The notes below the pieces were generated by a model. That model searched no databases. It was not told where the DNA came from and worked only from the letters and a program-made list of their open reading frames with translations. Of a stretch of 64,000 bases of DNA, positions 41,897-60,146 are shown in pieces. Made by a program: the position numbers and the translations under genes. How positions within the stretch are numbered: position 1 is the stretch's first letter; each line of letters opens with the position of its first letter. The DNA comes from a virus, in IMG/VR virus record IMGVR_UViG_3300003323_001224, positions 1 to 64,000 of that record. One strand, written 5' to 3'.

Positions 41897-41898
41897 AG

Positions 41899-43363: not shown

Positions 43364-43471
43364 GGTGATCTTTTTTAGGCGATTTTGGCAATTTTTTGAC
43401 AATTTTTCTGAGCCAAATCTACATCGAATTCGCCATTTCTGCAATTAAATCCGGAGGATTTTACAATTAGG

Positions 43472-45919: not shown

Positions 45920-47014
45920 TTATTGTATCAAAAGTTCAATCCCAAACTTTTTGCATTTGTATTGTATCATGTTTATCAATCCATGATACGACCAGTTTCT
46001 TAACAAGAACTGATTTTTTGGATCTTTCGCTTCCTCCTCTTTCTCCTTCTGATCAACGAGAATCAATTTGCCGCATCGATATGCGACGCACAAATCTACC
46101 AATTTCTTACTATAACTGTGCAATTTGGTCTGCACATAATGTCTTTCTTCTTCAGAGAAACGTTCAGTGGCTTGCAGCTTCCGTTTTCTACCTTTGCCTC
46201 CTTTGTTGAACCGAGCGGCTCTTTGCGCTCTTCTTAGTCCCTCTTGTATACTAATTCTACCGTATAAGAACTCATCTTTGGTCCCGATGGATAATTCCTT
46301 TCTATTTACTTTGGCCACAATAGGTACATCCAGGCTGAGAGAAGCTGTCATAGCAACGTCCACATCCAAAACTACTGGTTTTTTTTCAATTTCAAAGACT
46401 GCTAATAAAAAAATTTTCTTTTTCTTCAACTGTATAGAACTATCGCAAAGAGAATGTATGCCTTTCAAAGCTTCCTCCATCAGCAACCGGTTATTGCTAA
46501 AGTCATAACCGAAATGCGTTCGAAACGGAATGCCCCACACTTCAAATTTGTAATTTTCGCTGTCTTCAGATAAAGACCAATTGCGCATAAGAATAGTTGG
46601 CAGCGGCATTGGAATGTCTCGGCGATAGGTTCGCAAAGCGCGCTTTCCGGAAAAATATTCCTTCCGCTCCTTGCTAATGTTTGCTGTGACGAGGTTGTTT
46701 ATCGCAGAAACACTTGCCATTGGCGCCTCGCCCTTGAACTTTTTTGAATTTACCTGGTAGGTTGTATTGGGACGGCTCGTAGTTAATATCCCCTCTTCCG
46801 CTTTAATTCTATCCTTCAATGTGATTTTGAAATCATCATGAAGATAAAAGAATTCGGAAATATTTTCCTGAAAATATTGATGGGTGGCCGTGTGGTTAGC
46901 AGCCCTAAATATTATTTCATTCCATTTGCGCAATTTTGCATAATTATCTTTAAACTCTTTTTTATCAGAATCTATAAATAATTGAATTTTTCTTGTTATG
47001 ATATTTTTAGCCAT
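45920..47014 (-). CDS. Miniature type V effector (Cas12f/TnpB-like), predicted nuclease-dead
   Basis: 364 residues. Family landmarks: H-F-G-Y-D-F-S-N-N-R near 167 and D-S-S-I-Q-L-K-K-K-K-I-F-L-L near 191 lead into the RuvC fold; L-S-I-G-T-K-D-E-F-L (241-250); K-G-G-K-G-R-K-R-K-L (271-280); L-R-N-W-S-Y-H-G-L-I-N-M-I-Q-Y-K near 338. In the usual family register the RuvC-I aspartate is Ser225 and the RuvC-II glutamate is Val320. The chain ends at I-E-L-L-I-Q, before the zinc finger and RuvC-III; neither other frame after the stop codon restores them. Expected activity is crRNA-guided DNA binding without cutting. Own promoter upstream; tracrRNA and array follow. Confidence 0.85.
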   Translation of the reverse strand: MAKNIITRKIQLFIDSDKKEFKDNYAKLRKWNEIIFRAANHTATHQYFQENISEFFYLHDDFKITLKDRIKAEEGILTTSRPNTTYQVNSKKFKGEAPMASVSAINNLVTANISKERKEYFSGKRALRTYRRDIPMPLPTILMRNWSLSEDSENYKFEVWGIPFRTHFGYDFSNNRLLMEEALKGIHSLCDSSIQLKKKKIFLLAVFEIEKKPVVLDVDVAMTASLSLDVPIVAKVNRKELSIGTKDEFLYGRISIQEGLRRAQRAARFNKGGKGRKRKLQATERFSEEERHYVQTKLHSYSKKLVDLCVAYRCGKLILVDQKEKEEEAKDPKNQFLLRNWSYHGLINMIQYKCKKFGIELLIQ

Positions 47015-47030
47015 TAGGTATTATTTCGGG

Positions 47031-47061
47031 CAAAATATGCGAAATTAGTTACATTGGCAAA
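47031..47061 (-). promoter_or_regulatory. Promoter of the miniature effector
   Basis: On the minus strand: TTTG (47061-47058), 20 bases, TATTTTG (47037-47031), close to the Bacteroidota -33/-7 consensus. It lies 17 bases upstream of the ATG and would give a very short leader, independent of the upstream small genes. Confidence 0.5.
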
Positions 47062-47106
47062 TAAACTTCGATGTTAGCGGGGCAATTAAATAATTGAGAT
47101 AATCAT

Positions 47107-47394
47107 TCAATTTTTGTATTCTGAATTCGGCTTGACATCCTCCATCCCCATGAACTCATCAATAGGTTGGATAATGTATTTATCGTTGCTTATGATGTCG
47201 ATTAAAATAAGTGATTGACCCAATCGTTCTGATTTAAAATTGGTATGTCTTAGAGATCCCCTGATAGCACCCTGCGCTTCATTCAAATCCCAAAAGAAGA
47301 GACCTTTCCATATTCGGTGTGCATGCATAACAACAAATAGTTGTCCTCTTTTAGGCATTACTTTTTCTTTATTTCGATAGATTTCGGTCATCAT
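47107..47394 (-). CDS. Hypothetical protein (95 aa)
   Basis: Small beta-rich protein (Q-L-F-V-V-M-H-A-H-R-I-W-K-G-L-F-F-W-D-L). Two tandem ATG codons at the start. Overlaps the upstream gene by one base. Unrecognised; nearest protein gene upstream of the CRISPR effector on the same strand, so a link cannot be excluded. Confidence 0.5.
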   Translation of the reverse strand: MMTEIYRNKEKVMPKRGQLFVVMHAHRIWKGLFFWDLNEAQGAIRGSLRHTNFKSERLGQSLILIDIISNDKYIIQPIDEFMGMEDVKPNSEYKN

Positions 47395-47636
47395 TATTTC
47401 GTGGTTTTATTTGCTTCGTGTGCATTGTAAATAAATTTCACGGCTTCACCCGCGCATTTAATAAAATCGACATCAATAAATTTTTTGCCCATTGCGTGAA
47501 TTCTCCAGGTCGATTTTTTGCCAATTTGATATTTACCACTTCCTGGAGAACCATACTCCAATATAATCTTTAATCTATAAATATTGGCAACCGCTTCCAG
47601 CGCGGCAATTGCGTCTATTGCGGATGGACCTTTCAT
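47394..47636 (-). CDS. Hypothetical protein (80 aa)
   Basis: Soluble alpha/beta protein with I-I-L-E-Y-G-S-P-G-S-G-K-Y, a glycine-rich turn that resembles a P-loop only superficially. One-base overlaps with both neighbours show a three-gene operon. Function unknown. Confidence 0.5.
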   Translation of the reverse strand: MKGPSAIDAIAALEAVANIYRLKIILEYGSPGSGKYQIGKKSTWRIHAMGKKFIDVDFIKCAGEAVKFIYNAHEANKTTK

Positions 47637-47872
47637 TAATTATCGCCGGCTTTTTCAATTTGATCATTCCATTTCACAAGCCCTGGCATGATCTGAGCCA
47701 AAGCATGGACGAGTTCTTTAGGATCTACTCCGGGTCCCAATACGACTCGATATTTGTCTTCGCCGAGTTCTTTCACAAGGCATAACATGGGCCATCCATT
47801 TGTTTGGTTGCACAATTCTTTTATGTTGCGCAAAATTTCGCTCGTCAGTTCTTTTCGTGTTTCTTCGGTCAT
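47636..47872 (-). CDS. Hypothetical protein (78 aa)
   Basis: Acidic, helical with a beta-hairpin centre (L-C-L-V-K-E-L-G-E-D-K-Y-R-V-V-L-G). First gene of the three-gene unit, starting directly after tRNA-Met. No family recognised. Confidence 0.5.
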   Translation of the reverse strand: MTEETRKELTSEILRNIKELCNQTNGWPMLCLVKELGEDKYRVVLGPGVDPKELVHALAQIMPGLVKWNDQIEKAGDN

Positions 47873-47874
47873 AG

Positions 47875-47944
47875 GTGCGGTCGCCGGATTCGAACCGATC
47901 TTTAGGGTTATGAGCCCTATGTGCTGCCGTTACACTACCCCGCA
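47875..47944 (-). tRNA. tRNA-Met(CAT), slightly degenerate acceptor
   Basis: Anticodon stem TAGGG/CCCTA with loop CTCATAA (CAT), as in initiator-type tRNAs; D-arm GTGT/GCAC; T-loop TTCGAAT. The acceptor TGCGGGG pairs with GACCGCA except for its two innermost positions. Could be initiator, elongator or, if modified, Ile. Confidence 0.6.
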
Positions 47945-47953
47945 AAATTACAG

Positions 47954-48025
47954 TTCTCCCTACGGGATTCGAACCCGTGATGACGCCGTGAAAGGGCGCC
48001 GACTTAACCGCTTGTCGAAGGGAGC
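47954..48025 (-). tRNA. tRNA-Glu(TTC)
   Basis: Anticodon loop CTTTCAC on a GCGCC/GGCGT stem; T-arm CGGG-TTCGAAT-CCCG; acceptor GCTCCCT/AGGGAGA with one end mismatch; discriminator A. No CCA encoded. Confidence 0.8.
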
Positions 48026-48028
48026 GGG

Positions 48029-48122
48029 TGCGGAGGGGAGGATACGAGCCCCCACGAAATTAACCTAGAATAAATTTCCATTCATTAGACTGAATGCCGT
48101 CTACCAGTTCCGGCACCTCCGC
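48029..48122 (-). tRNA. Leu-type class II tRNA with apparent CTA anticodon (amber)
   Basis: Perfect acceptor GCGGAGG/CCTCCGC; D-stem CCG/CGG typical of leucine tRNAs; long variable arm with GAAATT/AATTTC; T-stem GGGGG/CCTCC. The anticodon stem ATTCA/TGAAT leaves a 6-base loop GTCTAA (or 8 bases with CATTC/GAATG). With T at position 33 the anticodon is CTA, which reads UAG. The irregular loop makes this uncertain. Confidence 0.6.
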
Positions 48123-48142
48123 AAATCCAATACTTTAAAATA

Positions 48143-48168
48143 GGGGCAGGTCGTATCCTGCCTGCCCC
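48143..48168. terminator. GC-rich hairpin in tRNA spacer
   Basis: GGGGCAGG / CCTGCCCC 8-bp stem. On the minus strand it is followed by TATTTTAAA, a weak terminator tail. Confidence 0.45.
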
Positions 48169-48281
48169 CAATCATTGTTACGGTTTACAAGACCGCTGCT
48201 GATAATGAGTCAGCTGGCAAATTGAAGTTTTCAAACAGCCTAATGCTCATGCTGTCGTCTGACGATCTACCATCTGATCTA
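48169..48281 (-). other. tRNA-like debris
   Basis: No gene. On the minus strand GCGGT-CTTGTAA-ACCGT (around 48180-48197) looks like an intact tRNA-Thr(TGT) anticodon arm, but no acceptor or regular T-arm surrounds it. Likely a decayed tRNA. Confidence 0.3.
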
Positions 48282-48315
48282 CCCCCCCTCCGGGGCGGCT
48301 GCTCCGGAGGGGGGG
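48282..48315. terminator. Very strong 12-bp GC hairpin
   Basis: Seven C then TCCGG, a 10-base loop, and the perfect complement ending in seven G. Both strands can fold it. It sits between tRNA-like fragments and would block readthrough from either side. Confidence 0.55.
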
Positions 48316-48380
48316 ACAGGACTCGAACCTGCGACTTTCAGATTACCGACTGCTTGACTTCAACAAGTGAAACTTAGCTT
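48316..48380 (-). other. tRNA-like 3' half (T-arm)
   Basis: On the minus strand GCAGG-TTCGAGT-CCTGT forms a perfect T-arm, and the C-run of the adjacent hairpin would be its acceptor strand, but no pairing 5' acceptor or clear anticodon arm is found. The remaining bases to 48458 show only AAGCTTT-type repeats. Confidence 0.3.
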
Positions 48381-48458
48381 AAAGCTTTTGACGCAATGCT
48401 TACGCTCATATCTAGGATCTGTTTAAGCTGATGCTAAAGCTAAAGCTTTGTCAAAGAT

Positions 48459-49250
48459 TTATTTTCCGTGAATATATCCAAAGATCTTTTCAGCTGTTAG
48501 GCCAGACTGTACAACTTCAACTTCATTGGCTTTTGCCAAAGCCTCCCGCACTGACTCCTTAAGTTTACTAAGCCTATACAACATTGCCGCTCTATCGCGA
48601 TGGGAAATCTCACCGGAAAAATGCTGTACTGTCTGCATCCCCAAAACGACTTGCGTATCCTTAGAAGCTATTTGAGGCTTATAACCAGATCCATCCTTTA
48701 GCAGTTGAATATTTGGATCGGGGAGAATGTATGATTCCTTCAAGGTAGTTCTATTGGCACTTTCGAAAACTTCTGTTTCCCAAATATTTTCTGACTTCAT
48801 CTCGCTGTCGTTGGATCGCACCCATTTGATATCATCTCTCCGGACAGGTAGCGTTTCGTACATTTTTGATAATTCTTTCGAATCCAAAAATGACCGCAAG
48901 CGCAAAAGTTCAAGTGTCGTATACTTCCCCCAATCTTCGCCATCAACAATAAGATTGGCGGTCGCTTTGCCGGTGGCATTTGTCGCCTCAATGGCAAACA
49001 AATTTGTTATGTGATCGCCGCAGGTGTCCAGAAAATATTTGAGATACTCCGGCACTGAATTTTGTACCGGTTTGAATCCCCTTTTCGAAGGTTCATCTAA
49101 GTAATCGCCTTCTGCTTGATAAGTTTGCCGCACTCCCACGAAAATTTGGGACTTATGCTTATCAGCAAAAGTGGCTACATATTCCTTCAGCAATGCATTG
49201 TACTGAGTACCTGAATGTTCTGTTTTGGCAAGCAAAGCATTTTGTTTCAT
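48459..49250 (-). CDS. Hypothetical phage protein (263 aa)
   Basis: Starts at the first ATG (49250). Helical N-terminus followed by a beta-rich centre (A-N-L-I-V-D-G-E-D-W-G-K-Y-T-T-L-E-L-L-R) and a helical C-terminus ending in a possible oligomerisation helix. Resembles a conserved phage protein family of unknown function that I cannot name with confidence. Flanked by tRNA-Lys. Confidence 0.55.
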   Translation of the reverse strand: MKQNALLAKTEHSGTQYNALLKEYVATFADKHKSQIFVGVRQTYQAEGDYLDEPSKRGFKPVQNSVPEYLKYFLDTCGDHITNLFAIEATNATGKATANLIVDGEDWGKYTTLELLRLRSFLDSKELSKMYETLPVRRDDIKWVRSNDSEMKSENIWETEVFESANRTTLKESYILPDPNIQLLKDGSGYKPQIASKDTQVVLGMQTVQHFSGEISHRDRAAMLYRLSKLKESVREALAKANEVEVVQSGLTAEKIFGYIHGK

Positions 49251-49268
49251 AATCCTTTTTTTTAATTG

Positions 49269-49341
49269 TTCCGCAACCACGGATCGAACGTGGCACTCCC
49301 TGCTTAAAAGGCAGGTGCTCTAACCACTGAGCTATTGCGGA
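49269..49341 (-). tRNA. tRNA-Lys(TTT)
   Basis: Acceptor TCCGCAA/TTGCGGA perfect; anticodon stem CTGCC with loop TTTTAA (TTT); T-arm CACG-TTCGATC-CGTG; discriminator A. Intact cloverleaf. Confidence 0.85.
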
Positions 49342-49581
49342 TTAATTCATCTTTTTCCTTTGCTGCATCCAAAAATCATTTACTTGTTTGAAAATATGCT
49401 CCCACCACGCTGTCAATTCATCTATATTGGGATTCGCATGGCTCTCTTTCATCTTATCGATTAATACCATGATACCACCCATAAAAGCCTCTTTCATCAT
49501 TTGCCATTGATCTGGTGGCGTAATGCTTTTAAACAATGATAAACGTTCCATGAAAGTTTCATATTCTTTGTCCAAATCCAT
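49342..49581 (-). CDS. Hypothetical protein (79 aa)
   Basis: Short acidic helical protein with several Met and Trp residues. Its stop abuts the tRNA-Lys gene. Not recognised. Confidence 0.45.
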   Translation of the reverse strand: MDLDKEYETFMERLSLFKSITPPDQWQMMKEAFMGGIMVLIDKMKESHANPNIDELTAWWEHIFKQVNDFWMQQRKKMN

Positions 49582-49586
49582 AACGA

Positions 49587-49853
49587 TTAATTCGATTTAG
49601 GTCGCTGCATTATTTTTCTCTCAATCGTCATGAATTCACTTCCCGAAAGCAACAAATCCGTTCCGTATTTCGTCCTTACCTTCATTCTCAGATCTCGCCC
49701 CGTTTTACTTTTTGGATCGGCGGCGCTGCCATCCAATTCGCACATTTCCACAAAATCGGTCTCCTCTCCTGACCATTCATGTCCAGGTAGCACAAGTATT
49801 TTTCGCCCTTGAAAGAAAGCGTTCAGGTCACCAATAGTTTTAAATTTTTTCAT
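49587..49853 (-). CDS. Hypothetical protein (88 aa)
   Basis: Beta-rich small protein (K-I-L-V-L-P-G-H-E-W then K-V-R-T-K-Y-G-T-D-L-L), ending in a basic tail. Five bases separate it from the next gene downstream. Function unknown. Confidence 0.5.
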   Translation of the reverse strand: MKKFKTIGDLNAFFQGRKILVLPGHEWSGEETDFVEMCELDGSAADPKSKTGRDLRMKVRTKYGTDLLLSGSEFMTIERKIMQRPKSN

Positions 49854-49860
49854 TGCGTAT

Positions 49861-50070
49861 TCATTTATCCAAAAACGGTATCCCTGACTTTATCTCCATA
49901 TGTATATGGTATTGCAATTGTGTTTTGGCTGAATTAATGATCTTGCCCGCCAACTGGCTAATGTGGCCAATCTCTTTCACATTTACCTGACCCTTTCTAG
50001 CTTGCTCATAATACGACAATAGATCTTCTCTCAGATCGGTGATACCAATAATTTTTTCAGGGTGTTCCAT
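49861..50070 (-). CDS. Hypothetical protein (69 aa)
   Basis: Helical, with D-L-R-E-D-L-L-S-Y-Y-E-Q-A-R-K-G-Q-V near the start, a pattern common in small phage regulatory or accessory proteins. Overlaps the upstream gene by 14 bases. Confidence 0.5.
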   Translation of the reverse strand: MEHPEKIIGITDLREDLLSYYEQARKGQVNVKEIGHISQLAGKIINSAKTQLQYHIHMEIKSGIPFLDK

Positions 50071-50284
50071 TTTTCAAAGTCCACTTTAATGCTTGAAGGA
50101 TAATTATACAATCAACAAGATCGGTTTGTTTCATTAAAATTCTTCTATAATATGGCCTATCAGCTGTTGGTATCTTCCATGCACATATCATCCATGCAAC
50201 ATGCATAGCTCGTTGCCTATTTATGTTTCGTTCACAATGGTTGGAACAAATAGAACAGCCACATAAAAGTTGGTCATTACCCAT
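50057..50284 (-). CDS. Cysteine-rich small protein (75 aa)
   Basis: N-terminal C-G-C-S-I-C-S-N-H-C cluster suggests one zinc site; the rest is basic and helical. It starts two bases before tRNA-Gln and overlaps the next gene. No family recognised. Confidence 0.45.
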   Translation of the reverse strand: MGNDQLLCGCSICSNHCERNINRQRAMHVAWMICAWKIPTADRPYYRRILMKQTDLVDCIIILQALKWTLKNGTP

Positions 50285-50285
50285 G

Positions 50286-50357
50286 CTCCCGCACCTGGAT
50301 TCGAACCAGGGACCTAGAGATCCAAATTCTCTTATTCTACCGCTGAACTATGCGGGG
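50286..50357 (-). tRNA. tRNA-Gln(TTG)
   Basis: Anticodon stem AGAGA/TCTCT with loop ATTTGGA (TTG); acceptor CCCGCA/TGCGGG plus a terminal C-A mismatch; T-arm CTGG-TTCGAAT-CCAG; discriminator G. Confidence 0.8.
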
Positions 50358-50627
50358 TTATAGCATTCGTATTTTACTTAACTTTTCTCTATATAGCTTC
50401 TCCCTATTCACCCAAAATTCCTTTGGTACCTTCGTAACTTCTTCCAGCTTGCCTGCAAGATCTTGCGTGATCTTTTTATCCCCTTTTAATAGCCTCCACG
50501 TCATGTTGCCCGATAGTCCTAATCTTTCTGCCAACATTCTCACATTCCATCCTCTATCTTCCATTATCTCTTTTAGCGTATCCCCAGGGCAGGATAATAA
50601 TTCGAGTTCAATCTTTTTGTTGCTCAT
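50358..50627 (-). CDS. HigA-like XRE antitoxin/regulator (89 aa)
   Basis: XRE helix-turn-helix in HigA style: P-G-D-T-L-K-E-I-M-E-D-R-G-W-N-V-R-M-L-A-E-R-L-G-L, N-M-T-W-R-L-L-K-G-D, then V-P-K-E-F-W-V-N-R-E-K-L-Y at the end. No HigB toxin gene is adjacent, so it may be an orphan antitoxin or a phage regulator. Overlaps the upstream gene by 20 bases. Confidence 0.75.
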   Translation of the reverse strand: MSNKKIELELLSCPGDTLKEIMEDRGWNVRMLAERLGLSGNMTWRLLKGDKKITQDLAGKLEEVTKVPKEFWVNREKLYREKLSKIRML

Positions 50628-50889
50628 GTGCTTCCAGTTTATATTCCTGCGGCCATTTATCTCCTGTCCATAAAATAGGCGAAGTCAAGGCTAATTGTTG
50701 TAAATTAAATTCTTCTTGAATTTCTGCAATGTCATCACCTCCTATAGCATGTCCACGATCACCATACGATGTTGGCTTACCTTCTTCATCGTAATATACT
50801 GTCCTTATCTCCAGGTAGACCGAAGATTCGATACCAGAAAAATTTTGTTCAATAGCCATTACGCGATAATTCCAAGTCATAATTCTCAT
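50608..50889 (-). CDS. Conserved small protein, MTWNYR type (93 aa)
   Basis: Recognisable small family: T-W-N-Y-R-V-M near the start, then E-I-R-T-V-Y-Y-D-E-E-G-K-P-T-S-Y and an I-G-G-D-D-I-A-E-I segment. Found in many bacteria and phages, function unknown. ATG at 50889 or three codons later. Confidence 0.65.
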   Translation of the reverse strand: MRIMTWNYRVMAIEQNFSGIESSVYLEIRTVYYDEEGKPTSYGDRGHAIGGDDIAEIQEEFNLQQLALTSPILWTGDKWPQEYKLEAHEQQKD

Positions 50890-50897
50890 TTTAATAA

Positions 50898-50994
50898 AGC
50901 GAGTTGCCCATCACGCGCACCTGGGCCAGGTGTTGAACCGAAGTCTCGCCAGTCCGCCGGAAAGGAGAGATAATCGTGCGCTTATTGACTCGCT
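50898..50994 (-). ncRNA. Structured non-coding RNA candidate
   Basis: Nested long-range pairing: AGCGAGT/ACTCGCT (7 bp, 97 bases apart), then GCGCAC/GTGCGC (6 bp) inside, then CACCTGG/CCAGGTG-type and TCTC/GAGA elements. It is not a normal tRNA although it sits between tRNA-Gln and tRNA-Phe. Could be a processed small RNA or an aberrant tRNA-like element. Confidence 0.4.
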
Positions 50995-51033
50995 CAGGAT
51001 TTACCCCTTTATAAATCCTACACCGTAAGAAGG

Positions 51034-51105
51034 TGGCACCGGGCAGAGTCGAACTGCCTACGCCGGGATTTTCGGTCCCGCGCTCTACCGCTGAGCTACG
51101 ATGCC
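51034..51105 (-). tRNA. tRNA-Phe(GAA)
   Basis: Acceptor GGCATCG/CGGTGCC with one G-T; anticodon stem CGGGA/TCCCG; loop CCGAAAA gives GAA, with unusual C at position 33; T-arm GGCAG-TTCGACT-CTGCC; discriminator A. Confidence 0.75.
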
Positions 51106-51296
51106 TTTTTAGATAACCTATAGACGACAATTGCCCATATAAAAGCTGCAATCTGCACCGCTAACCAAAAAACCGTCCCTGATCTCACCTGACCATGAAA
51201 ATAATACATATCCTTCCCCACATCACTCATGCTAACCAAAACCATCACGGCATTGAAACAAACCACGTTCTTTGGCCAATCAATTTCTAATATCAT
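51096..51296 (-). CDS. Small membrane protein (66 aa)
   Basis: The first ATG in the frame is at 51296; the longer frame upstream starts only with TTG. Two hydrophobic helices (about residues 10-25 and 42-60) end in a basic tail. Its stop overlaps the tRNA-Phe 5' end by 10 bases. The interval 51297-51372 upstream holds no feature I can support. Confidence 0.5.
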   Translation of the reverse strand: MILEIDWPKNVVCFNAVMVLVSMSDVGKDMYYFHGQVRSGTVFWLAVQIAAFIWAIVVYRLSKKAS

Positions 51297-51372
51297 ATTT
51301 TTTATGCTCGTTTGCGACAACGATAAAAAATAATCCAGGTATAGATGGTAACCCTCACCTTTAAATAAACAC

Positions 51373-51777
51373 TCATTCAATTTCAGTTATATATCTGTGC
51401 TCATCCGTTTTTACCTTAAAGCCTAAGTGCCTTATGTAATCATCCAACATGAAAAACTTATTACCATTCGAAATAATCCTGACATCTTTCTTCCAAAACG
51501 GCTTCAATTTCCCTTTGTTGAAGATGATAACATCGCCTACGTCTACACTCACCAAATGAACTAAGCTAATAATAAATTCTTTTTCTTCCACGTTTTGCCA
51601 AGCTTCAACTAATTTGTAGGCTCTTTCCAGGTCTATAGCGACCCCCTCTTCATAAGTAATCGAAATCCATTGAATGTCACCCAGGACCTTTCCCTCATCA
51701 AATAGATCTGCGGCCTTCATTAAATGATTCATATGCGCCGGAGCCGCAATAATCAATAGATTTGCCTTATGGCTCAT
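51373..51777 (-). CDS. Hypothetical protein (134 aa)
   Basis: Starts in an ATGA overlap with the upstream gene (51777). Alpha/beta protein beginning L-L-I-I-A-A-P-A-H-M-N-H-L-M-K-A-A, with V-D-V-G-D-V-I-I-F-N-K-G in the middle. No enzyme motif identified. Confidence 0.55.
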   Translation of the reverse strand: MSHKANLLIIAAPAHMNHLMKAADLFDEGKVLGDIQWISITYEEGVAIDLERAYKLVEAWQNVEEKEFIISLVHLVSVDVGDVIIFNKGKLKPFWKKDVRIISNGNKFFMLDDYIRHLGFKVKTDEHRYITEIE

Positions 51778-52007
51778 AGCCAAACTTCTTTAATACAGGG
51801 ATCGTCGTTTTGAAAACGCTCTAATCTATGAAGCCCTAACCGCTGGAGATGCGTTTCGATGGGTGCGTAATTATCCTCGATCATGTCAGGCAGTTGGTTA
51901 GGTTTGGGAGATCCTGAACCAACAATGAACCAACGCCTAAGCACAAATTTTCCAGGATAATCAGGTGGATTATAATAAACGCAATAATGCGTCACAAAGA
52001 TGCTCAT
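51774..52007 (-). CDS. Hypothetical protein (77 aa)
   Basis: ATG at 52007 chosen because upstream codons are proline-rich and unconvincing. Aromatic N-terminus (H-Y-C-V-Y-Y-N-P-P-D-Y-P-G-K-F-V-L-R-R-W). First gene of an operon lying downstream of an operator-like palindrome at 52128. Confidence 0.5.
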   Translation of the reverse strand: MSIFVTHYCVYYNPPDYPGKFVLRRWFIVGSGSPKPNQLPDMIEDNYAPIETHLQRLGLHRLERFQNDDPCIKEVWL

Positions 52008-52127
52008 AGGATGAAAGTTAAATGGAGCGGGTTCCCTGGCCTTCGATACAAATTGCAATCATATGAATTCCTTGACCCCCGCCCCGCAACGAATGTATTA
52101 AATAATTTGAAAAAATAAAATTTATTT

Positions 52128-52146
52128 AATCAATTTTTTTTTGATT
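52128..52146. promoter_or_regulatory. Operator-like palindrome (site B)
   Basis: AATCAA, seven T, TTGATT. It lies in the gene-free gap 52008-52149, upstream of the leftward operon beginning at 52007 and 3' of the gene ending at 52150. Same architecture as sites A, C and D. Confidence 0.6.
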
Positions 52147-52149
52147 GGG

Positions 52150-52380
52150 TTAACCGGTAATAAATATAAATATGCCATCAATACCTTTCTTTTCAACATT
52201 CATGGGCACAAATACCACCGACTCCAACAAGCAGTCCACATGTACTACTTTGGCCTCAATGTTACCACTTTCATCTTGCGTGCCCGCAATAGGCACGAAT
52301 ATGGCGTCTTTCTGATCCTGCTTGCCGCAGATAGGACAGGTGTCGCCGTCGCGTTCGTATTGTGATGGGAAGGTTTTCAT
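52150..52380 (-). CDS. Zinc-knuckle small protein (76 aa)
   Basis: Contains C-P-I-C-G-K near residue 15 and a later H-V-D-C, giving a plausible CxxC...HxxC zinc site. Beta-rich. ATGA overlap with the 42-residue gene upstream. Function unknown. Confidence 0.5.
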   Translation of the reverse strand: MKTFPSQYERDGDTCPICGKQDQKDAIFVPIAGTQDESGNIEAKVVHVDCLLESVVFVPMNVEKKGIDGIFIFITG

Positions 52381-52505
52381 TCGTCACCAAATTTTACGGG
52401 ATAGCCTAAAAATTCAAGCAGACGGATCACATCGGCCTCTTTGTATCCTATCTCGCCCAGCTCAATTTCCACTATCGCAGTCACTGTATTAATTACGAAG
52501 TTCAT
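52377..52505 (-). CDS. Small hypothetical protein (42 aa)
   Basis: Starts in a TAATG overlap with the ParB-like gene and ends in an ATGA overlap with the next gene; both junctions support translation. Acidic, with a central helix (Y-K-E-A-D-V-I-R-L-L-E-F-L). No family. Confidence 0.5.
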   Translation of the reverse strand: MNFVINTVTAIVEIELGEIGYKEADVIRLLEFLGYPVKFGDE

Positions 52506-54013
52506 TATCTGGAGATCTTTGGAAGTTCATTAGCCGATGTATCAACTTTCAATTTTTCAATTTCGACAGGGCGCCCTTTTCCATCCCGCTCCCTATATAA
52601 ATTCCACGCTTCTATCATCCAGTGGACCTTGGCATTCGAGGAGGTTCTGCCATTTGCCCTATCAGCTTTATTTCCCCAATTTAAAAGCTCTTTCCTCAAG
52701 AAATAAATTTGTGAGCCATCGTACCTACTGATTCCCTCTCCCGTAGCTAACTTTTCCATGAAAGTATGCCCCTCCGTTTTGTGCTTCGATGTGAAGGCAT
52801 AGTACATACCAGTCCATTGCGTTAAAGTCAACATGGTTTTAGGAGCGTTTTTTTTGGGCACCGTATCAGCCCAAGACATGCACTCTTTCAATTTTCTATA
52901 ATTCCGCTCATCCTTGATCCATTTGTTGATGTCGTGATTAGTAACATTGACACGCTTAGTCGTCACTACACCATATTCTAGCAACAAAATAATAAACTTT
53001 ACGCAGGCGGCTGCCTGATTGGCATTGGGCACATTTTCAACCGAAAGCGTATCGCCTGGAGTTCTTTTCCTACCAGAATCAACAACTTCGAAGGCTTCAA
53101 CCGGTGAGCCGGTAAAAATAACCATATTGTATGTTTTACCCGCTTTTATCATCGCTAACAATTTATGTTGCCCATCGTACAATTTCCCATTAATATCAAT
53201 CCCAATAGTTGCTTGGTTTGTATCAATCCATAATTCATTAGCCATTTGTTCCGCATGTCCAAAAACTTCTTCCAGATAAATGTGCCTATTTTTTGTATTA
53301 AGCATCATTATATCTTCTGCCATTGTCGGGGTAACATCGATAATTATTTTGCCTTTTGTGGGCGTCGCCTTTTTTATTCTTTCTATAATATCAGTATCCG
53401 GTCTTTCCTTTGCTGGTTTTACATTTTGGATAAATCTTTGATTGTATTTCAATTTTTTATGATAGTTGCTTTCATTGGCTTCGTTTTCGTTTCTTTCTAT
53501 TTTCTCAATTTTAACTTGGTAGAATTTTTGTCCTGAAACTGGAACCAGTGAACACTCGACGATGACAGAAGCACCTTGTTTTATGGGTTTGGGAATCATT
53601 TGCCCATTAGCTTTTGCGACTTCCAGGAACTGTTCTATGATTCTCTTGCTATCCGATTTTCCCACTTTAAATTTGACATCATCATCTTTCTGCACAACTT
53701 CAATAGCAGTAGCATTGTTTCGCAAATGATCGCTTTGCGGGTCTATTTGACAAAGAATTTCTCCGTAATTCTTTCCTATAAAAAATATGATAGCTGCTAT
53801 GTCCGTATGTTCTCTGAAGAAATTTCCGGCGCGTAAAATATAGGAAAAACCGCCAAAACGAGCGTCAGCGGTTTGAATGATAATTTGAAAATCATAGGTG
53901 ATGATTGTTTTCCCTTTGATGACAAGCTTACCGGGGACACTGCCTTGTCTTAGGTATTTTACAAAGGTGGCATCATCCATTGGTTTTCCCGGCCTAATTA
54001 AATCGGTACTCAT
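52505..54013 (-). CDS. ParB/sulfiredoxin-fold phage protein (502 aa)
   Basis: N-terminal half unrecognised and basic; the C-terminal half from about residue 225 carries a ParB-type fold: a domain with T-I-G-I-D-I-N-G-K-L-Y-D-G-Q-H-K-L-L-A-M-I (the DGQHR-like core), then V-E-A-F-E-V-V-D-S-G-R-K-R-T, then a helical domain. Phage relatives are DNA-associated proteins of poorly known role. Under the palindrome at 54046. Confidence 0.65.
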   Translation of the reverse strand: MSTDLIRPGKPMDDATFVKYLRQGSVPGKLVIKGKTIITYDFQIIIQTADARFGGFSYILRAGNFFREHTDIAAIIFFIGKNYGEILCQIDPQSDHLRNNATAIEVVQKDDDVKFKVGKSDSKRIIEQFLEVAKANGQMIPKPIKQGASVIVECSLVPVSGQKFYQVKIEKIERNENEANESNYHKKLKYNQRFIQNVKPAKERPDTDIIERIKKATPTKGKIIIDVTPTMAEDIMMLNTKNRHIYLEEVFGHAEQMANELWIDTNQATIGIDINGKLYDGQHKLLAMIKAGKTYNMVIFTGSPVEAFEVVDSGRKRTPGDTLSVENVPNANQAAACVKFIILLLEYGVVTTKRVNVTNHDINKWIKDERNYRKLKECMSWADTVPKKNAPKTMLTLTQWTGMYYAFTSKHKTEGHTFMEKLATGEGISRYDGSQIYFLRKELLNWGNKADRANGRTSSNAKVHWMIEAWNLYRERDGKGRPVEIEKLKVDTSANELPKISR

Positions 54014-54045
54014 AAAATTGATTTCGGTTATTGATTCTGGTTATT

Positions 54046-54064
54046 AATCAAAAAAATATTGATT
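54046..54064. promoter_or_regulatory. Operator-like palindrome (site C)
   Basis: AATCAA, seven A/T, TTGATT, with arms extended by one base to TAATCAA/TTGATTA. It lies 32 bases upstream of the ATG at 54013. The surrounding gap 54014-54165 is AT-rich with a C-run at 54104 and no other feature I can support. Confidence 0.6.
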
Positions 54065-54165
54065 AGAATTTGAAGTTATAATTTTTTTAACTAAATTTAT
54101 CTCCCCCCCTTAAAATAAAGTCGGATTATCAATAGTTAAAAGCCTCGTCATGCGTAGAAAGAAAC

Positions 54166-54582
54166 CTAAAAAGTACCTTCAGCTTTCCATTTCTCCAGCT
54201 GCGCTAATCGGTCCTGTTCGATTATTGCCTCTGCCTCCATCCTATCCTTCGCTGGTAAAGAAGAAAAAACAATACTCATTAAATAAGCGACTTCGGCCCG
54301 AAGCCTGATAATTTCCTTCGCCTGTTCGCTCAACACCTTCTCTTCTTCTACTTTGGCCATTACAGGCTTCAGAAATTTCTTGTGCGCTACTTTGATCTTG
54401 TAAAGCAACTCTTGAGGGGCCGGCTTGTTTTTTTTCTCCCTCGTCAGCCACCGGCTTATGGTCTCCCGTGCTACGCCTGCTCTCGTGGCAATAGCAGTTT
54501 GATCCAACGTATACCCGGACGCTTGTATTATTTCGTCAATCAGGGAACGGAGAGGTGGCTGTGCAAGTGACTGCTTTGCCAT
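54166..54582 (-). CDS. XRE-like repressor (probable)
   Basis: 138 residues from the ATG at 54582; an upstream TTG would overlap operator D. Helix-turn-helix at about 20-55: Y-T-L-D-Q-T-A-I-A-T-R-A-G-V-A-R-E-T-I-S-R-W-L, followed by a long coiled-coil-like C-terminus (E-E-E-K-V-L-S-E-Q-A-K-E-I-I-R-L-R-A-E-V). It faces the rightward early genes across a region packed with palindromes and phased repeats, the usual place for a lysogeny switch. Confidence 0.7.
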   Translation of the reverse strand: MAKQSLAQPPLRSLIDEIIQASGYTLDQTAIATRAGVARETISRWLTREKKNKPAPQELLYKIKVAHKKFLKPVMAKVEEEKVLSEQAKEIIRLRAEVAYLMSIVFSSLPAKDRMEAEAIIEQDRLAQLEKWKAEGTF

Positions 54583-54625
54583 TTGTGAAACGTTTTGGGG
54601 TAAATCTTGATTTTTTTTCAACGTT

Positions 54626-54644
54626 CAATCAAAAAAATTTTGAT
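54626..54644. promoter_or_regulatory. Operator-like palindrome (site D)
   Basis: CAATCAA, seven A/T, TTGATTG; with outer T/A the arms reach 8 bases. Lies 44 bases upstream of the repressor-like ATG, so it suggests autoregulation. Confidence 0.65.
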
Positions 54645-54666
54645 TGACTGAAATCTCGTCAAAAAT

Positions 54667-54711
54667 TGATCACATGTGATCGTGTGTGACTACATGTGAC
54701 TATATTTGATC
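54667..54711. repeat. Helically phased direct repeats TGTGAYY with a 14-bp palindrome
   Basis: GATCACATGTGATC (54668-54681) is a perfect palindrome. TGTGATC, TGTGACT, TGTGACT and TTTGATC begin at 54675, 54685, 54695 and 54705, each 10 bases apart, so all would face one side of the helix. Candidate operator or iteron cluster ahead of the rightward early genes. Confidence 0.6.
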
Positions 54712-54750
54712 GTGATGGATGCAATATACTAAACGCTATCCAATTCGACA

Positions 54751-54990
54751 ATGAATTCGACACTAATATCTAAGAAAAAAGTCAGAGAAATTTTTGAAGT
54801 GCTGAGCGAGAGCGAGTTAAGGCAGCTCGAAGATCGCGTTGCGGGGTATGGTTGGCTGAGCGATACGGCACGCAGGGCGGAGGTACATGTCAATACGATC
54901 AAAAAAATCTTGATGAAGGGGTATGGCTACCCGACAACTATTCAAAAAATTCGCAACATCCTGACCCATGAAAATAGTACACATCAATAA
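54751..54990 (+). CDS. Small helix-turn-helix regulator (79 aa)
   Basis: HTH at about residues 30-52: G-W-L-S-D-T-A-R-R-A-E-V-H-V-N-T-I-K-K-I-L, preceded by a helical lead. First gene of the rightward early operon, directly after the phased repeats; likely the counterpart (Cro/activator-like) of the leftward repressor. Overlaps the next gene by 23 bases. Confidence 0.65.
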   Translation: MNSTLISKKKVREIFEVLSESELRQLEDRVAGYGWLSDTARRAEVHVNTIKKILMKGYGYPTTIQKIRNILTHENSTHQ

Positions 54991-55120
54991 AGGGAAAATA
55001 CGCCGGGAGGCCGTGCAGGACCAGCTGCAACGGGATATGCGTACCCATTTGATCTCTCTGGCCAAGAAAAGCGCCCGGCGCAAAATGGCGCAACTGCTTA
55101 ACCAATCAACCAATATATAA
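54968..55120 (+). CDS. Small basic protein (50 aa)
   Basis: Complete ATG-TAA frame that starts inside the HTH gene and ends 3 bases before the next gene. Arg/Lys/Gln-rich (K-I-R-R-E-A-V, then K-K-S-A-R-R-K-M). Likely nucleic-acid binding, but no domain is recognised. Confidence 0.5.
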   Translation: MKIVHINKGKIRREAVQDQLQRDMRTHLISLAKKSARRKMAQLLNQSTNI

Positions 55121-55123
55121 TAT

Positions 55124-55801
55124 ATGTCCCAACAACTCACGACTACCAGCACCGAAGATGTCCTCTCGTCCGTCGTCATCCATGGGGATCTTTCCAAATT
55201 AACGGATACACAAAAAGTCATCTATTATCGCCAATTCTGCGATTCATTAGGACTCAATCCCCTTACGCAACCCTTTGCCATTATTAAATTCCAGGGGAAA
55301 GAAGTACTCTATGCGAAGAAGGATGCTACCGAACAGTTGCGTAAAGTGCATGGCATCAGCGTCACCGATCTCACCGGCGAGGTACAGCATGATAGCACCT
55401 ATGTCGTTACCTGTAAAGTTCGGGATAAGCAGGGGAAAACAGACATCGCCACCGGCGTGGTTGCGCTGGAAGGGCTTAAAGGTGCCCCACTCTCCAATGC
55501 AAAAATGGTGGCAGAAACCAAAGCCAAGCGCCGCGCTACTCTGAGCATCTGCGGTCTCGGTATGATGGACGAATCGGAGATCGGCACTGTAGATGGGAGC
55601 TACGTGACAGTAGACGTTCCTGTTCAGGAAAAATCATCCGCCAAACCGCCCTTGACAGATAAAGCTTTCGGTCAAGCAGTGGAGCGCATCCAGAAAGGGG
55701 AAAAAGGATTGATCGAAAAGCTCAGGCAGTCCTACGCGCTATCGCAGGCGCAAATCGATACGCTTGTAGGAATGGAGGATGCTAATATTGTCAGCGCATG
55801 A
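55124..55801 (+). CDS. RecT/Red-beta-like single-strand annealing protein (probable)
   Basis: 225 residues. The N-terminal half resembles phage annealing proteins: Y-Y-R-Q-F-C-D-S-L-G-L-N-P-L-T-Q-P-F-A-I-I near residue 32 (the 'LNP' region of Red-beta/RecT), then K-K-D-A-T-E-Q-L-R-K and A-K-R-R-A-T-L-S-I-C-G-L. Such proteins anneal single strands in phage recombination. The nuclease downstream at 56541 could serve as partner. Assignment by motif resemblance only. Confidence 0.65.
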   Translation: MSQQLTTTSTEDVLSSVVIHGDLSKLTDTQKVIYYRQFCDSLGLNPLTQPFAIIKFQGKEVLYAKKDATEQLRKVHGISVTDLTGEVQHDSTYVVTCKVRDKQGKTDIATGVVALEGLKGAPLSNAKMVAETKAKRRATLSICGLGMMDESEIGTVDGSYVTVDVPVQEKSSAKPPLTDKAFGQAVERIQKGEKGLIEKLRQSYALSQAQIDTLVGMEDANIVSA

Positions 55802-56004
55802 AAAAGATAATCACCATAGAAATTGAGGAACCTCGGCAGGCACATGATAATTTAGCCGATCTACTATGTTGGTGGCAAGGGTATATGGCCGGCCTTAAAG
55901 CCGCAGCACCGTATACCGACACAAATTTTGTAGCCGATAATGGCATAGCGACAGCGCGTATTATTTTGAATAAAATTAAAGCTGCGTTATGCGAATCAAA
56001 CTAA
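55798..56004 (+). CDS. Hypothetical protein (68 aa)
   Basis: ATGA overlap with the annealing-protein gene. Contains L-L-C-W-W-Q-G-Y-M-A-G-L-K-A-A, a tryptophan-rich helix. Not recognised. Confidence 0.5.
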   Translation: MKKIITIEIEEPRQAHDNLADLLCWWQGYMAGLKAAAPYTDTNFVADNGIATARIILNKIKAALCESN

Positions 56005-56090
56005 CCCCTGAGCAAGAAAACGCCTTGTGGGTGTTAATCTTCTGCCTGGGCAGCATATTAATTGTTCTTCTTATACTTATTTTCTTATGA
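55989..56090 (+). CDS. 33-residue single-helix membrane peptide
   Basis: Complete ATG-TGA frame starting inside the previous gene and ending in an overlap with the ATG at 56087. Polar lead of about 12 residues, then one hydrophobic helix rich in Leu and Ile. Function unknown. Confidence 0.45.
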   Translation: MRIKLTPEQENALWVLIFCLGSILIVLLILIFL

Positions 56091-56326
56091 CAGAAATATA
56101 TGAACTGGAATGCGGGGACATTAAGCAACGTGGATCGCTGGCGGAGCTTATCAAGCTCAGCGGAACATTGGCGGCAGGACTTCCGCGTCAATTTTTTCTC
56201 ATTAAAAAATCTAAACTCAATGGCGCATCTTATCAAGACGAACCCGCAACATGTCTGGAATCTGGATGGCAGCAAGCTGGAAGGGGAAGTGGCGGCAGCT
56301 CAGGAGAGGAAAAACTACCTGCATGA
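56087..56326 (+). CDS. Possible small protein (79 aa)
   Basis: Starts in a TTATGAC overlap with the membrane peptide. The first ~45 residues look genuine (L-A-E-L-I-K-L-S-G-T-L-A-A-G-L); the rest overlaps the next gene by 107 bases and becomes Gly/Ser-rich, as expected for a shadow frame. The true 3' end may be an older, truncated gene. Confidence 0.35.
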   Translation: MTEIYELECGDIKQRGSLAELIKLSGTLAAGLPRQFFLIKKSKLNGASYQDEPATCLESGWQQAGRGSGGSSGEEKLPA

Positions 56327-56528
56327 GCTAGAGATCCCTCACTTTTTGCAAGCCAAGCAAGGACGCGTCTCGATGATCATTCCCGCTGACATGCCCCTGG
56401 CTGTTGATGATGTCCTCACCAATGAATATGGCTGGGAAGGGGTGGTCGTAGACATCCTGGAGCGCAGACCGGCCAGGGGCGAGTGGGGGGGCAGGAAAGT
56501 AGACTATGTGCGGGTGCAGTTTTTATAA
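56220..56528 (+). CDS. Hypothetical protein (102 aa)
   Basis: ATG at 56220 preferred over one 120 bases upstream. Beta-rich protein with M-I-I-P-A-D-M-P-L-A-V-D-D-V-L and a C-terminal V-D-Y-V-R-V-Q-F strand, suggesting a small barrel. Function unknown; within the replication operon. Confidence 0.5.
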   Translation: MAHLIKTNPQHVWNLDGSKLEGEVAAAQERKNYLHELEIPHFLQAKQGRVSMIIPADMPLAVDDVLTNEYGWEGVVVDILERRPARGEWGGRKVDYVRVQFL

Positions 56529-56540
56529 AAATGGTTTCAT

Positions 56541-57407
56541 ATGGAACATGGAAGAGACGCTGCGCGCAAGATTCGAAAGGTGGGGCAAAGAAAAAGAGAA
56601 TGCTCTTCATGCAATGCGCCTATCGAGGAGACACGCTGGACTTCTAGTCGGTATTGCAGGGAATGTGCAAAAAAAATGGAGGATAAAGAGAAGAAGAAAG
56701 CTAGAAATCATTCTCCTGACCAACTGCTGAAGAATATTTGTCGTTCAAAAGCACGTAACGCTTTAAAGAGTGGAAAAATATTACGGCAGATTTGTGAAAT
56801 ATGCGGCGCAACACAAACTGAAATGCACCACGATGATTATTCGAAACCATTAGATGTTAGATGGTTTTGTAAACGTTGCCATGTTAAAAAACATAAATAT
56901 GAACGCATGAGCCTTTCTCAAAAAAGTTGGCGCGCAGAATATAAACGCATGTACTATGCGGATCTTAAAAAAAGATCACCCGCCTTTTATGAATCAGGCG
57001 GCGGAGATAGCTACCAAATACCAATACCTTCAGAAAAGAACACGAATGGCCTGACCAAAATTATTATGAAATTCTTAAAACTCAAAGGTCACTACGCTAA
57101 CCGAATCAACACGCAGGGACAGGCGCGCATGGGGCGGAAGATTGTATATTACGAAGCTTTCACTAATAAGCCGGTATATGCGGAAGGAATTACATACACA
57201 AAAGGCACTACCCGGCGCGGCACGCCCGACATCGACGCCATCATATATGGCAAAACCGTGAAGATCGAAGTGAAGGTCGGTCGTGACAGCATGCGCGATG
57301 AGCAATGGGATGAGAAATGCGCTATTGAATCAGCTGGCGGATTCTACTTCATCGCGCGTAGCATGCAACCTTTTTATGAATGGTACATTGAAACTTTTGA
57401 AAAATGA
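56541..57407 (+). CDS. HNH-type zinc domain fused to VRR-NUC nuclease (288 aa)
   Basis: N-terminal zinc ribbon C-S-S-C...Y-C-R-E-C (residues 20-44), then an HNH-like C-E-I-C-G...M-H-H-D-D-Y-S-K-P...W-F-C-K-R-C-H-V-K-K-H (about 90-125), then a C-terminal VRR-NUC (PD-D/ExK) domain: T-K-G-T-T-R-R-G-T-P-D-I-D-A-I-I and K-I-E-V-K-V-G near 225-250. VRR-NUC enzymes cut branched DNA or serve recombination. The combination suggests a nuclease partner for the annealing protein upstream, or an HNH that invaded the gene start. Confidence 0.75.
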   Translation: MEHGRDAARKIRKVGQRKRECSSCNAPIEETRWTSSRYCRECAKKMEDKEKKKARNHSPDQLLKNICRSKARNALKSGKILRQICEICGATQTEMHHDDYSKPLDVRWFCKRCHVKKHKYERMSLSQKSWRAEYKRMYYADLKKRSPAFYESGGGDSYQIPIPSEKNTNGLTKIIMKFLKLKGHYANRINTQGQARMGRKIVYYEAFTNKPVYAEGITYTKGTTRRGTPDIDAIIYGKTVKIEVKVGRDSMRDEQWDEKCAIESAGGFYFIARSMQPFYEWYIETFEK

Positions 57408-57637
57408 ACGTAATTAATATAGATGAAATCGGAATAACAATCCGACCTTGTTCGCCTGATGAAGTGTTGATCATTATAGATGAAAAGAGACGACAGGCAG
57501 CCAAAGTGTTATCGATCGCCGATCTCGCGAATTTTATTACCCAATGTCGAATTCTATTGGAGGAAATGAAATTCACTGCGACATCTTCATGCGCTGACCC
57601 TGATCTGTATTCTACCGGTCCCGATTACCCTTATTAA
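57404..57637 (+). CDS. Hypothetical protein (77 aa)
   Basis: ATGA overlap with the nuclease gene. N-terminal I-N-I-D-E-I-G-I-T-I-R-P and a central helix; C-terminal tail disordered. Unrecognised. Confidence 0.5.
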   Translation: MNVINIDEIGITIRPCSPDEVLIIIDEKRRQAAKVLSIADLANFITQCRILLEEMKFTATSSCADPDLYSTGPDYPY

Positions 57638-57671
57638 ACAACATTGCATAACGCTACCTATATCAAAAGAC

Positions 57672-60146
57672 ATGGGCGAAACCCTCTCCGCCGTCTGGGA
57701 GCAAGTAAAATCGCTCCTCCATGCCGGTATCTCTGTCATCCCCGTTCGGGATCACGAAGACAAAGGCAAACCGCCCAAAACACCGTACGCCCAGTGGAAA
57801 CAATACCAGGAGCGCGTTACCACCGAACAGGAATTATGGGGCCAGATGGAGCGCCACAATACCGCCGCCGTCGCCATGATCTGCGGCAAGGTTTCAGGCC
57901 ACCTGGAAGCGATCGACATTGATGTAAAGAACTGGCCGGGCATTGATGCCCGGTATTTTGAAGCGATCCGGGAGTTATACCCCGATCTATGGGAGACCAT
58001 CCGTATCCACAGCACGCCTTCGGGCGGCTACCACATATTATACCGGATAGATAGGCCCGGTATACCCGGTAACCAGAAACTTGCCACTGCGGCGGGATCA
58101 ACGCAGGCAGGGATCGAAACAAGGGGGGAGGGGGGCTACGTTGTGGCTCCCCCCTCCCTGGGTTACCAGATCTATAAAGATCGACCGCTTCCCGTCTATA
58201 CCTGGGAACAACGTGAAGCCCTGATCAATCTTGCGAGGAGCTTTGATGAAAAGATCAAGGTCGCAGCAGCCCCTCCCTTACCCAAAAGTAAAAATGACTA
58301 TTATGATGAAAATCCATTCGAACATTTTAATGGTTCACCTGCCGCTGAAGAGATCCTTACTGATCAAGGATGGAGCCGGCTTCGAAATAGAAATAGCAGT
58401 TATCGATATTTTACACGACCGGGTAAATCTGCTGGTATCAGTGCCTCCTTCATTGTCGGGTCCCGACTATACTATATCTTCACTTCCAGCACCCACCTGG
58501 AACCTTCGACCGCCTACAGTCCTTCCGCTCTGCTCTGCCGACTTCGATTTAATGGAGATGGAAAAGCCCTCTACCAATACCTCGTCGAACAGGGCTACGG
58601 CAAAATAAAGTCCCGGATAGAACAACGCCTCGTACGTTCCAAGATCCTCAGCGGCGATGACCTACCCGGCAACGTCTCTTCCGCCGCCAAAGAATTATAT
58701 ACCAAAGAAAAAGACCGCCTATGCAGGACATACGCACACGGCACCTACTGGGTGCAGGACGATATAGACGATGTGGTCAAGATCAACCGGGAACGCTTGT
58801 ACACCGTAGCCTCCGGACTCGGCTTTCGGCACTACAACGGCAAGGTCGTACAGATCGATGGCTATATCGTCCGGTCTGTCACGGACCGGCTGTTCTACGA
58901 TACGCTGAAATCTTACTGCGTAGAAGAAGAAGCAGATTTTCTCGAAGCTATCCGCAACGCATTCGAAGCTTTTGTTCAGAAGGCTGGCGAGTTTACTATT
59001 ACCCGGATCGAGGAGCTAGACGAACGTCATATTCTTACAAGTGCGAAACATACCTCTTTCAAGTTTTATAATAACGGCTTTATCAAGATCTGGGCTACGG
59101 AAATTTCTTTTCATTCATACAGCGAAATTTCTCACTGGCTCATCTGGGAACAACAGATCATCCAAAGAGATTACCAATCTTTTGAAGGTGATGTTACCCA
59201 ATCGCTTTTTTATCAATTCCTGGAAAAGGCCCTCGGCATATCCGACTACTTATGGCAAGTCCTGGGTTATATCATCCATGACTACAAAGATGAAACCATG
59301 GGCTACATCTTCGCCCTTGTCGAAAAGTGCGAAGATCCCCGACAAGGCGGTGGCACCGGCAAAAACCTCCTTTGCAACCTGCTCTCCCATATCACCACGG
59401 TGAAGGTAGTGGCCGGCTCACAAGTCCAGTTGAATGAAAAGCTTCTCCAGTCCTGGAATTACGAAAAGCTCCTGGTCATCAGCGATGTCCCTAAGCGCTT
59501 TGACTGGAGCTTTCTGAAAGAACCTTCCATGGGACACGCCACTAAAAAAAATCTCTTTAAAGATGAAATCGTTATCCCGCCTGATAAAATGTGCAAGTTC
59601 CTGGTCCTTACCAATTATTCTTATGATAATGTTGATGGAGGACTTAGACGACGCATACGGCCACTGGAGTTTACCTCCTTTTTTACCCATTCCGGCGGTG
59701 TGGACGGGCACTTCGGTAGACTCTTTCCCTACGATTGGAATGACCTGGAATGGGCCGCCTACGATCACCTTTTGCATCACGCGATACAACGATACCTGCA
59801 ATCTGATGGTAAGATTCCTGCGACCGATCTTTCCCCTACCGGATGGCTCAAACAGTTCGATCAAACCTATCACTTCGCCACACGGGGATTTATCCAGGAA
59901 CAATGGGACTTCTGGTTACGTAGTGGCTTCATCTCCAACGAAAGTTTTAAACAAGCCTATGACCTTTATTGCAATACCAACGGCATTCATCCACGCTATC
60001 GCCTTACCATGCACAAACTCAACCAGGCCATAAGAGAGTGGTGTGATTACAATAAAGTCTTTTTCGATGTCGATGCGATCGAACGGTATAACAGTATTCC
60101 CTTCCGGGGTAAACGTTTTACTTTGCTGGAGGCGCCACCGTTTTAA
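57672..60146 (+). CDS. Primase-polymerase fused to SF3-type helicase (824 aa)
   Basis: N-terminal prim-pol domain: G-I-S-V-I-P-V-R-D near 19, catalytic I-D-I-D-V-K-N near 77 and H-S-T-P-S-G-G-Y-H-I-L-Y-R near 115. The C-terminal helicase half has Walker A Q-G-G-G-T-G-K-N near 560, Walker B region L-L-V-I-S-D-V-P-K and an SF3-type sensor L-V-L-T-N-Y-S-Y-D near 645, as in NrS-1-like phage replicases. It probably primes and unwinds phage DNA, and no other replicase is in the window. Followed by a terminator. Confidence 0.8.
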   Translation: MGETLSAVWEQVKSLLHAGISVIPVRDHEDKGKPPKTPYAQWKQYQERVTTEQELWGQMERHNTAAVAMICGKVSGHLEAIDIDVKNWPGIDARYFEAIRELYPDLWETIRIHSTPSGGYHILYRIDRPGIPGNQKLATAAGSTQAGIETRGEGGYVVAPPSLGYQIYKDRPLPVYTWEQREALINLARSFDEKIKVAAAPPLPKSKNDYYDENPFEHFNGSPAAEEILTDQGWSRLRNRNSSYRYFTRPGKSAGISASFIVGSRLYYIFTSSTHLEPSTAYSPSALLCRLRFNGDGKALYQYLVEQGYGKIKSRIEQRLVRSKILSGDDLPGNVSSAAKELYTKEKDRLCRTYAHGTYWVQDDIDDVVKINRERLYTVASGLGFRHYNGKVVQIDGYIVRSVTDRLFYDTLKSYCVEEEADFLEAIRNAFEAFVQKAGEFTITRIEELDERHILTSAKHTSFKFYNNGFIKIWATEISFHSYSEISHWLIWEQQIIQRDYQSFEGDVTQSLFYQFLEKALGISDYLWQVLGYIIHDYKDETMGYIFALVEKCEDPRQGGGTGKNLLCNLLSHITTVKVVAGSQVQLNEKLLQSWNYEKLLVISDVPKRFDWSFLKEPSMGHATKKNLFKDEIVIPPDKMCKFLVLTNYSYDNVDGGLRRRIRPLEFTSFFTHSGGVDGHFGRLFPYDWNDLEWAAYDHLLHHAIQRYLQSDGKIPATDLSPTGWLKQFDQTYHFATRGFIQEQWDFWLRSGFISNESFKQAYDLYCNTNGIHPRYRLTMHKLNQAIREWCDYNKVFFDVDAIERYNSIPFRGKRFTLLEAPPF

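Follow-up and report, generated by a model that had tools for sequence, protein, structure and literature searches.

A dispersed 19-bp palindrome as the candidate operator of a single regulator in a temperate Bacteroidota podovirus

Does a palindrome that recurs at distant positions in a phage genome mark the targets of one phage repressor? An earlier note had proposed as much for AATCAA-N7-TTGATT. The stretch of DNA analysed here (the window; 64,000 nucleotides) is part of a 76,638-base (76.6 kb) virus record, and the phage is a podovirus of Bacteroidota. It is temperate, as it carries a tyrosine integrase gene (41996 to 43444, minus strand); this gene adjoins a tRNA-Met (41898 to 41972), and from its gene content the phage appears able to integrate. 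Relatives of its terminase (25251 to 27254; the portal is encoded at 27791 to 30136) were found in Cellulophaga, Flavobacterium and Maribacter phages, and a 42% relative in a Chitinophagaceae genome. The genes are arranged in blocks of alternating direction, with leftward blocks at 1785 to about 10480, 41477 to 54582 and 60274 to 64640, and rightward blocks at 10546 to 40974, 54751 to 60146 and from 65485 onward.

Scanning both strands identified four exact copies of the motif in the window, at 7013, 52128, 54046 and 54627, which agrees with the number first claimed, although the last had been placed one base too early, at 54626. Dinucleotide shuffles gave an expectation of 0.03 copies in the window, and none of 100 shuffles produced four. 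The 12.6 kb of the record beyond the window contribute a fifth exact copy, at 64943, and a sixth with one mismatch (TATCAAAAAAATGTTGATT), at 66941. Five sites have 6-bp arms that are exact inverted repeats of each other, giving a symmetric operator, and the half-site centres in the palindrome are separated by 13 bp. When spacers of 0 to 24 were tried, AATCAA...TTGATT pairs were found at spacer 7 only. The spacers of the four window copies had been described as identical; they are indeed all 7 nt long and all A/T, but comprise four different sequences (TTTTTTA, TTTTTTT, AAAAATA and AAAAATT). When all inverted repeats having 6-base arms and a spacer of 0 to 20 were counted, AATCAA/TTGATT was the sole family, A/T runs aside, with at least three copies, and no family of that size arose in 20 first-order Markov simulations. 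Intergenic DNA is A/T-rich and could be thought to yield such palindromes by chance, but with four copies in the window and five in the record against so low an expectation, all at a single spacing, and none in the simulations, this explanation is refuted.

All of the sites are intergenic; only the copy at 64943 overlaps an ORF of the mechanical gene model, and that ORF is itself doubtful. Copy 1 (7013 to 7031; AATCAATTTTTTATTGATT) lies 28 bp before the leftward gene at 6295 to 6984 (minus strand; 229 aa). Copy 2 (52128 to 52146; AATCAATTTTTTTTTGATT) lies 120 bp before the leftward gene at 51774 to 52007 (minus strand), the first in a series of small genes and tRNAs extending past tRNA-Phe, tRNA-Gln and tRNA-Lys to about 48459. 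Copy 3 (54046 to 54064; AATCAAAAAAATATTGATT) precedes the start of a ParB-like gene (54013) by 32 bp, and copy 4 (54627 to 54645; AATCAAAAAAATTTTGATT) precedes that of the candidate regulator gene (54582) by 44 bp, so that three copies share a start-codon distance of 28 to 44 bp. Additional TTGATT half-sites accompany copy 3 (at 54018 and 54031) and a further half-site accompanies copy 4 (at 54607), making 3 against 0.65 expected around these two copies. The symmetry at copy 4 reaches further, to perfect 9-base arms (TCAATCAAA...TTTGATTGA) over 23 bp.

The description of the sites as always lying upstream of leftward genes holds for the four window copies but not for the other two, as 64943 sits in a divergent gap (64640 to 65485) and 66941 is directly upstream of a rightward Bacteroidota-type promoter, TTG-N19-TATATTTG, at 66964 to 66993. 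These two sites also extend the list of targets originally named. Accessory glycosylation genes had been placed on that list through copy 1; however, the glycosyltransferase matches (7040 to 7897 and 7587 to 8333) are on the upstream side of copy 1, and the gene downstream, 6295 to 6984, gave no family match. A full-consensus promoter adjoins the operator at 66941 only. The leftward −7 boxes are one-mismatch matches and ambiguous: the operator overlaps a −7-like TTTTTTTG with one mismatch at copies 3 and 4, while copy 1 overlaps a possible −33 TTG, likewise a one-mismatch match. An E. coli-type promoter scan of 45700 to 55300 returned hits near the shuffle level. The overlaps at copies 1, 3 and 4 would fit repression; at 66941 the site immediately precedes the −33 element, a placement also compatible with activation. 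Separately, an A/T-rich gap at 65050 to 65460 of the record contains long inverted repeats, such as TTTTGTTACAGATTTTGTA, perfect over 19 nt with the copies 363 nt apart, and is a possible replication origin or regulatory region.

The motif is scarce elsewhere. The 20 phage records related by terminase hold one copy in total, and the prophage region of LY-5, whose TerL is the 42% relative, has virion genes in common with this phage but neither the motif nor the candidate regulator. Across 395 Bacteroidia genomes (∼1.4 Gb, a rough estimate from listed sizes), 48 copies with an A/T spacer were counted, with a maximum of four in any genome, compared with four in this 77-kb record, and none of these sampled genomes holds a set of such sites. 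With any N7 spacer, four whole genomes with related terminases contain 16 copies in ∼16.5 Mb, approximately one per Mb. A collection scan with a 21-bp extended motif returned at least 120 stretches, with one site each among the matches listed, and was uninformative. The frequency of the motif in coding DNA and in unrelated AT-rich genomes had been proposed as a test of the claim, and the claim withstood it, the motif being very rare in Bacteroidia genomes. The dispersed sites are a phage-specific, spacing-specific, intergenic, repeated palindrome.

This distribution bears on whether a host transcription factor or an architectural protein of the IHF or HU type could bind the palindromes. A/T spacers suggest DNA bending, and AATCAA fits the beginning of the IHF consensus, WATCAANNNNTTR. 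IHF sites are asymmetric, however, whereas all copies here are symmetric with the spacing fixed at 7 bp, and by eye only copy 1 fits the consensus. Given also that no sampled Bacteroidia genome has a set and that the four whole genomes carry so few copies, a host factor is disfavored and improbable.

Which phage protein, then, would bind? The leading candidate, P0001, is encoded at 54166 to 54582 (minus strand; 138 aa) and has an HTH-like segment at about residues 15 to 58 followed by a C-terminal half modeled as helical. Its Pfam scores were all below the curated cut-offs (LacI, 16.6 bits against 27; HTH_3, 16.4 against 23; Phage_CI_repr, 16.5 against 22), and no HTH domain exceeded its cut-off. 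Matches to PHROG families were obtained for 4494 (E value, 5e−5; function labeled unknown), 8 (3.5e−4) and 4779 (1.5e−3), two of which are transcription regulators. A single-sequence AlphaFold model was too poor (mean pLDDT, 52) for a fold search. No significant homologues of P0001 were identified in the phage collection, viral contigs, the 20 related records, the four genomes or the 395 Bacteroidia genomes, and the operator was not conserved in any of the relatives examined; when PHROG 4494 was used as a bridge to relatives, its matches lay mostly inside longer frames.

Divergent from P0001 is a gene for a small HTH-like protein, P0002 (54751 to 54990, plus strand; 79 aa), in the position of a Cro-like gene. 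The pair flanking copy 4 would correspond to the arrangement of a lysogeny switch. Between them, a 10-bp direct repeat of about TGTGAYYRYR occurs five times in tandem (54667 to 54717, plus strand) across a rightward −7 box, TATATTTG, at 54701. About 65 bp separate copy 4 from this box, which bears a different repeat array, and the direct repeats may constitute a second, different set of operators. With two operator types at the junction, at least two DNA-binding proteins probably act there.

The palindromes could accordingly be real operators of a phage DNA-binding protein other than P0001, possibly an activator: P0002, or the product of 65958 to 66329 or of 67279 to 67653. P0002 borders the same divergent junction as copy 4, the 65958-66329 product has weak HTH and sigma-region-4 matches, and the 66941 site is followed downstream by 67279-67653, whose product resembles the DUF4364 family, below cut-off; the place of 66941, just upstream of a −33 element, is a usual one for an activator as well. 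P0001, on the other hand, has better transcription-regulator matches than the other HTH-like proteins and an operator copy before its own start. Leftward genes outside replication account for most sites; P0002, by contrast, is the first gene of the replication block, and that block's promoter carries the other array. Binding by one of these three proteins is possible but would not be our first choice.

The ParB-like protein itself (P0003; 52505 to 54013, minus strand) invites another reading, in which the palindromes are partition or replication sites akin to parS. Scattered palindromic sites do resemble parS arrays, and copies flank the regulator gene on both sides, one of them just before the ParB-like gene. 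The protein matches only PHROG 5931 (E value, 1.5e−42), though, a widespread phage family without a demonstrated partition role, and the proteins that were scanned yielded no ParA. A phage with an integrase and with three sites at promoter distance from start codons is also a poor fit, and a partition function is very improbable.

The palindromes are best explained as dispersed operators of one phage-encoded dimeric regulator, most likely P0001, a reading to which we assign a probability of about 60%. The sequence gives good support to the view that, in this temperate phage, they form the operator set of a single regulator, on account of the specificity of the motif, the intergenic position and symmetry of the sites, and the presence of one at the regulator's own promoter. 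To that extent the one-repressor regulon of the earlier note can be retained, while its choice of the 54166-54582 product as the binder is put more cautiously here, beside three other HTH-like candidates. We infer that P0001 is the binder, that it dimerizes, that it represses rather than activates, and how far the regulon extends. Each regulator subunit would read one AATCAA half-site, and the A/T spacer would be read by shape or bending. In a lysogen, the bound regulator would control its own promoter through copy 4, beside the divergent early promoter. It would further act on the ParB-like gene, the series of small genes and tRNAs, an accessory block around 7 kb and the divergent junction at 64.9 kb, with the rightward unit at 66.9 kb as a probable additional target. 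To our knowledge, the repressor-operator systems of temperate Bacteroidota phages are poorly described, and a repeated operator with a candidate regulator nearby makes the lysogeny control of this phage group directly testable.

Dispersed operators have precedents in other phages. The C1 repressor of P1 acts at 22 dispersed operators, which are asymmetric 17-bp sequences (ATTGCTCTAATAAATTT) (PMC8546580). As here, a single repressor serves numerous sites of almost the same sequence, spread across the genome of a large temperate phage and found beside its own gene too, but the present site is a 19-bp palindrome in five or six copies, and repressor homology was not detected. In SPβ, SPBRE elements occupy the intergenic promoter regions of about ten genes; sequence analysis picked them out first, and they later proved to be the site of the MrpR repressor (PMC10516654). 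The logic of a repeated element in intergenic promoter regions is similar, although MrpR adopts a tyrosine-recombinase fold and its motif is 15 bp long, in contrast to the small HTH-like protein proposed here. The stoperators of Cluster A mycobacteriophages are asymmetric sites at which a repressor binds as a monomer and elongation is stopped (PMC9283540). They share with the present sites the presence of numerous repressor sites across a phage genome; the sites described here differ in being symmetric and in that three copies lie close to start codons. Their symmetry sets this phage apart from the asymmetric-site types represented by P1 C1 and the Cluster A stoperators. By analogy, its operators may nonetheless work like those of P1 C1, MrpR and the stoperators. 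The sequence is new, the regulator is probably new as well, and the style of phage control is probably one already known.

A related phage, G008 (IMGVR_UViG_3300005530_000035; terminase at 37% to that of this phage), carries 13 exact copies of GATACA-N3-TGTATC between 1865 and 30050, mostly just ahead of virion-gene starts. Most have a TAACTTTG or TAATTTTG box (the Bacteroidota −7) a few bases downstream, and these palindromes are likely a late-promoter set. A CTCCCC-T-run was also observed upstream of them. The two phages are alike in having related virion genes and dispersed identical palindromes ahead of genes, and differ in the sequence of the palindrome, its 13 copies and its location mostly at virion genes. 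Within this phage group, then, promoter sets marked by palindromes exist that differ in sequence and in the genes they serve, and the placement of a different palindrome at virion genes in G008 suggests that such sets change quickly within the group.

The leftward run downstream of copy 2 leads toward a gene at 45920 to 47014 (minus strand) whose 364-aa product is a full-length match to PDB 9n9c, "Nuclease-deactivated Cas12f" (phmmer E value, 1.4e−91). A CRISPR array at 43472 to 45740 adjoins it, with 33 repeats (GTTGTGACTTCCTTTCAAAATTAAGCTTCCTACAAC) at a period of 66; the array had no match in the phage collection. The protein ends short of the C-terminal part that would carry the last catalytic residue and the zinc ribbon of TnpB/Cas12f. 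A phage-borne, nuclease-dead Cas12f together with an array would possibly be an RNA-guided regulator. Copy 2 might then gate the dead-Cas12f gene at the end of the leftward run, with protein and guide RNA forming a two-layer control of lysogeny or superinfection, an idea we consider unlikely. The gaps between copy 2 and the Cas12f gene measure 142, 335 and 92 bp, the second with a terminator-like hairpin, and a single transcript across them is therefore uncertain. This GC-rich hairpin (CCCCCCCTCCGGGGCGGCTGCTCCGGAGGGGGGG; 48162 to 48145), in the gap at 48123 to 48459, adjoins a tRNA-like stretch that ARAGORN and Rfam left unresolved. Three spacers of the array nearly match the phage's own sequence: that at 45476 at 26 of 27 bases (27084 to 27110, in the terminase gene), that at 44293 at 25 of 27 (34956 to 34982, in a gene of the structural block) and that at 44822 at 28 of 30 (73264 to 73293 of the record, in the 73.3-kb region). 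These near matches suggest targeting of the phage's own lineage or of close rivals.
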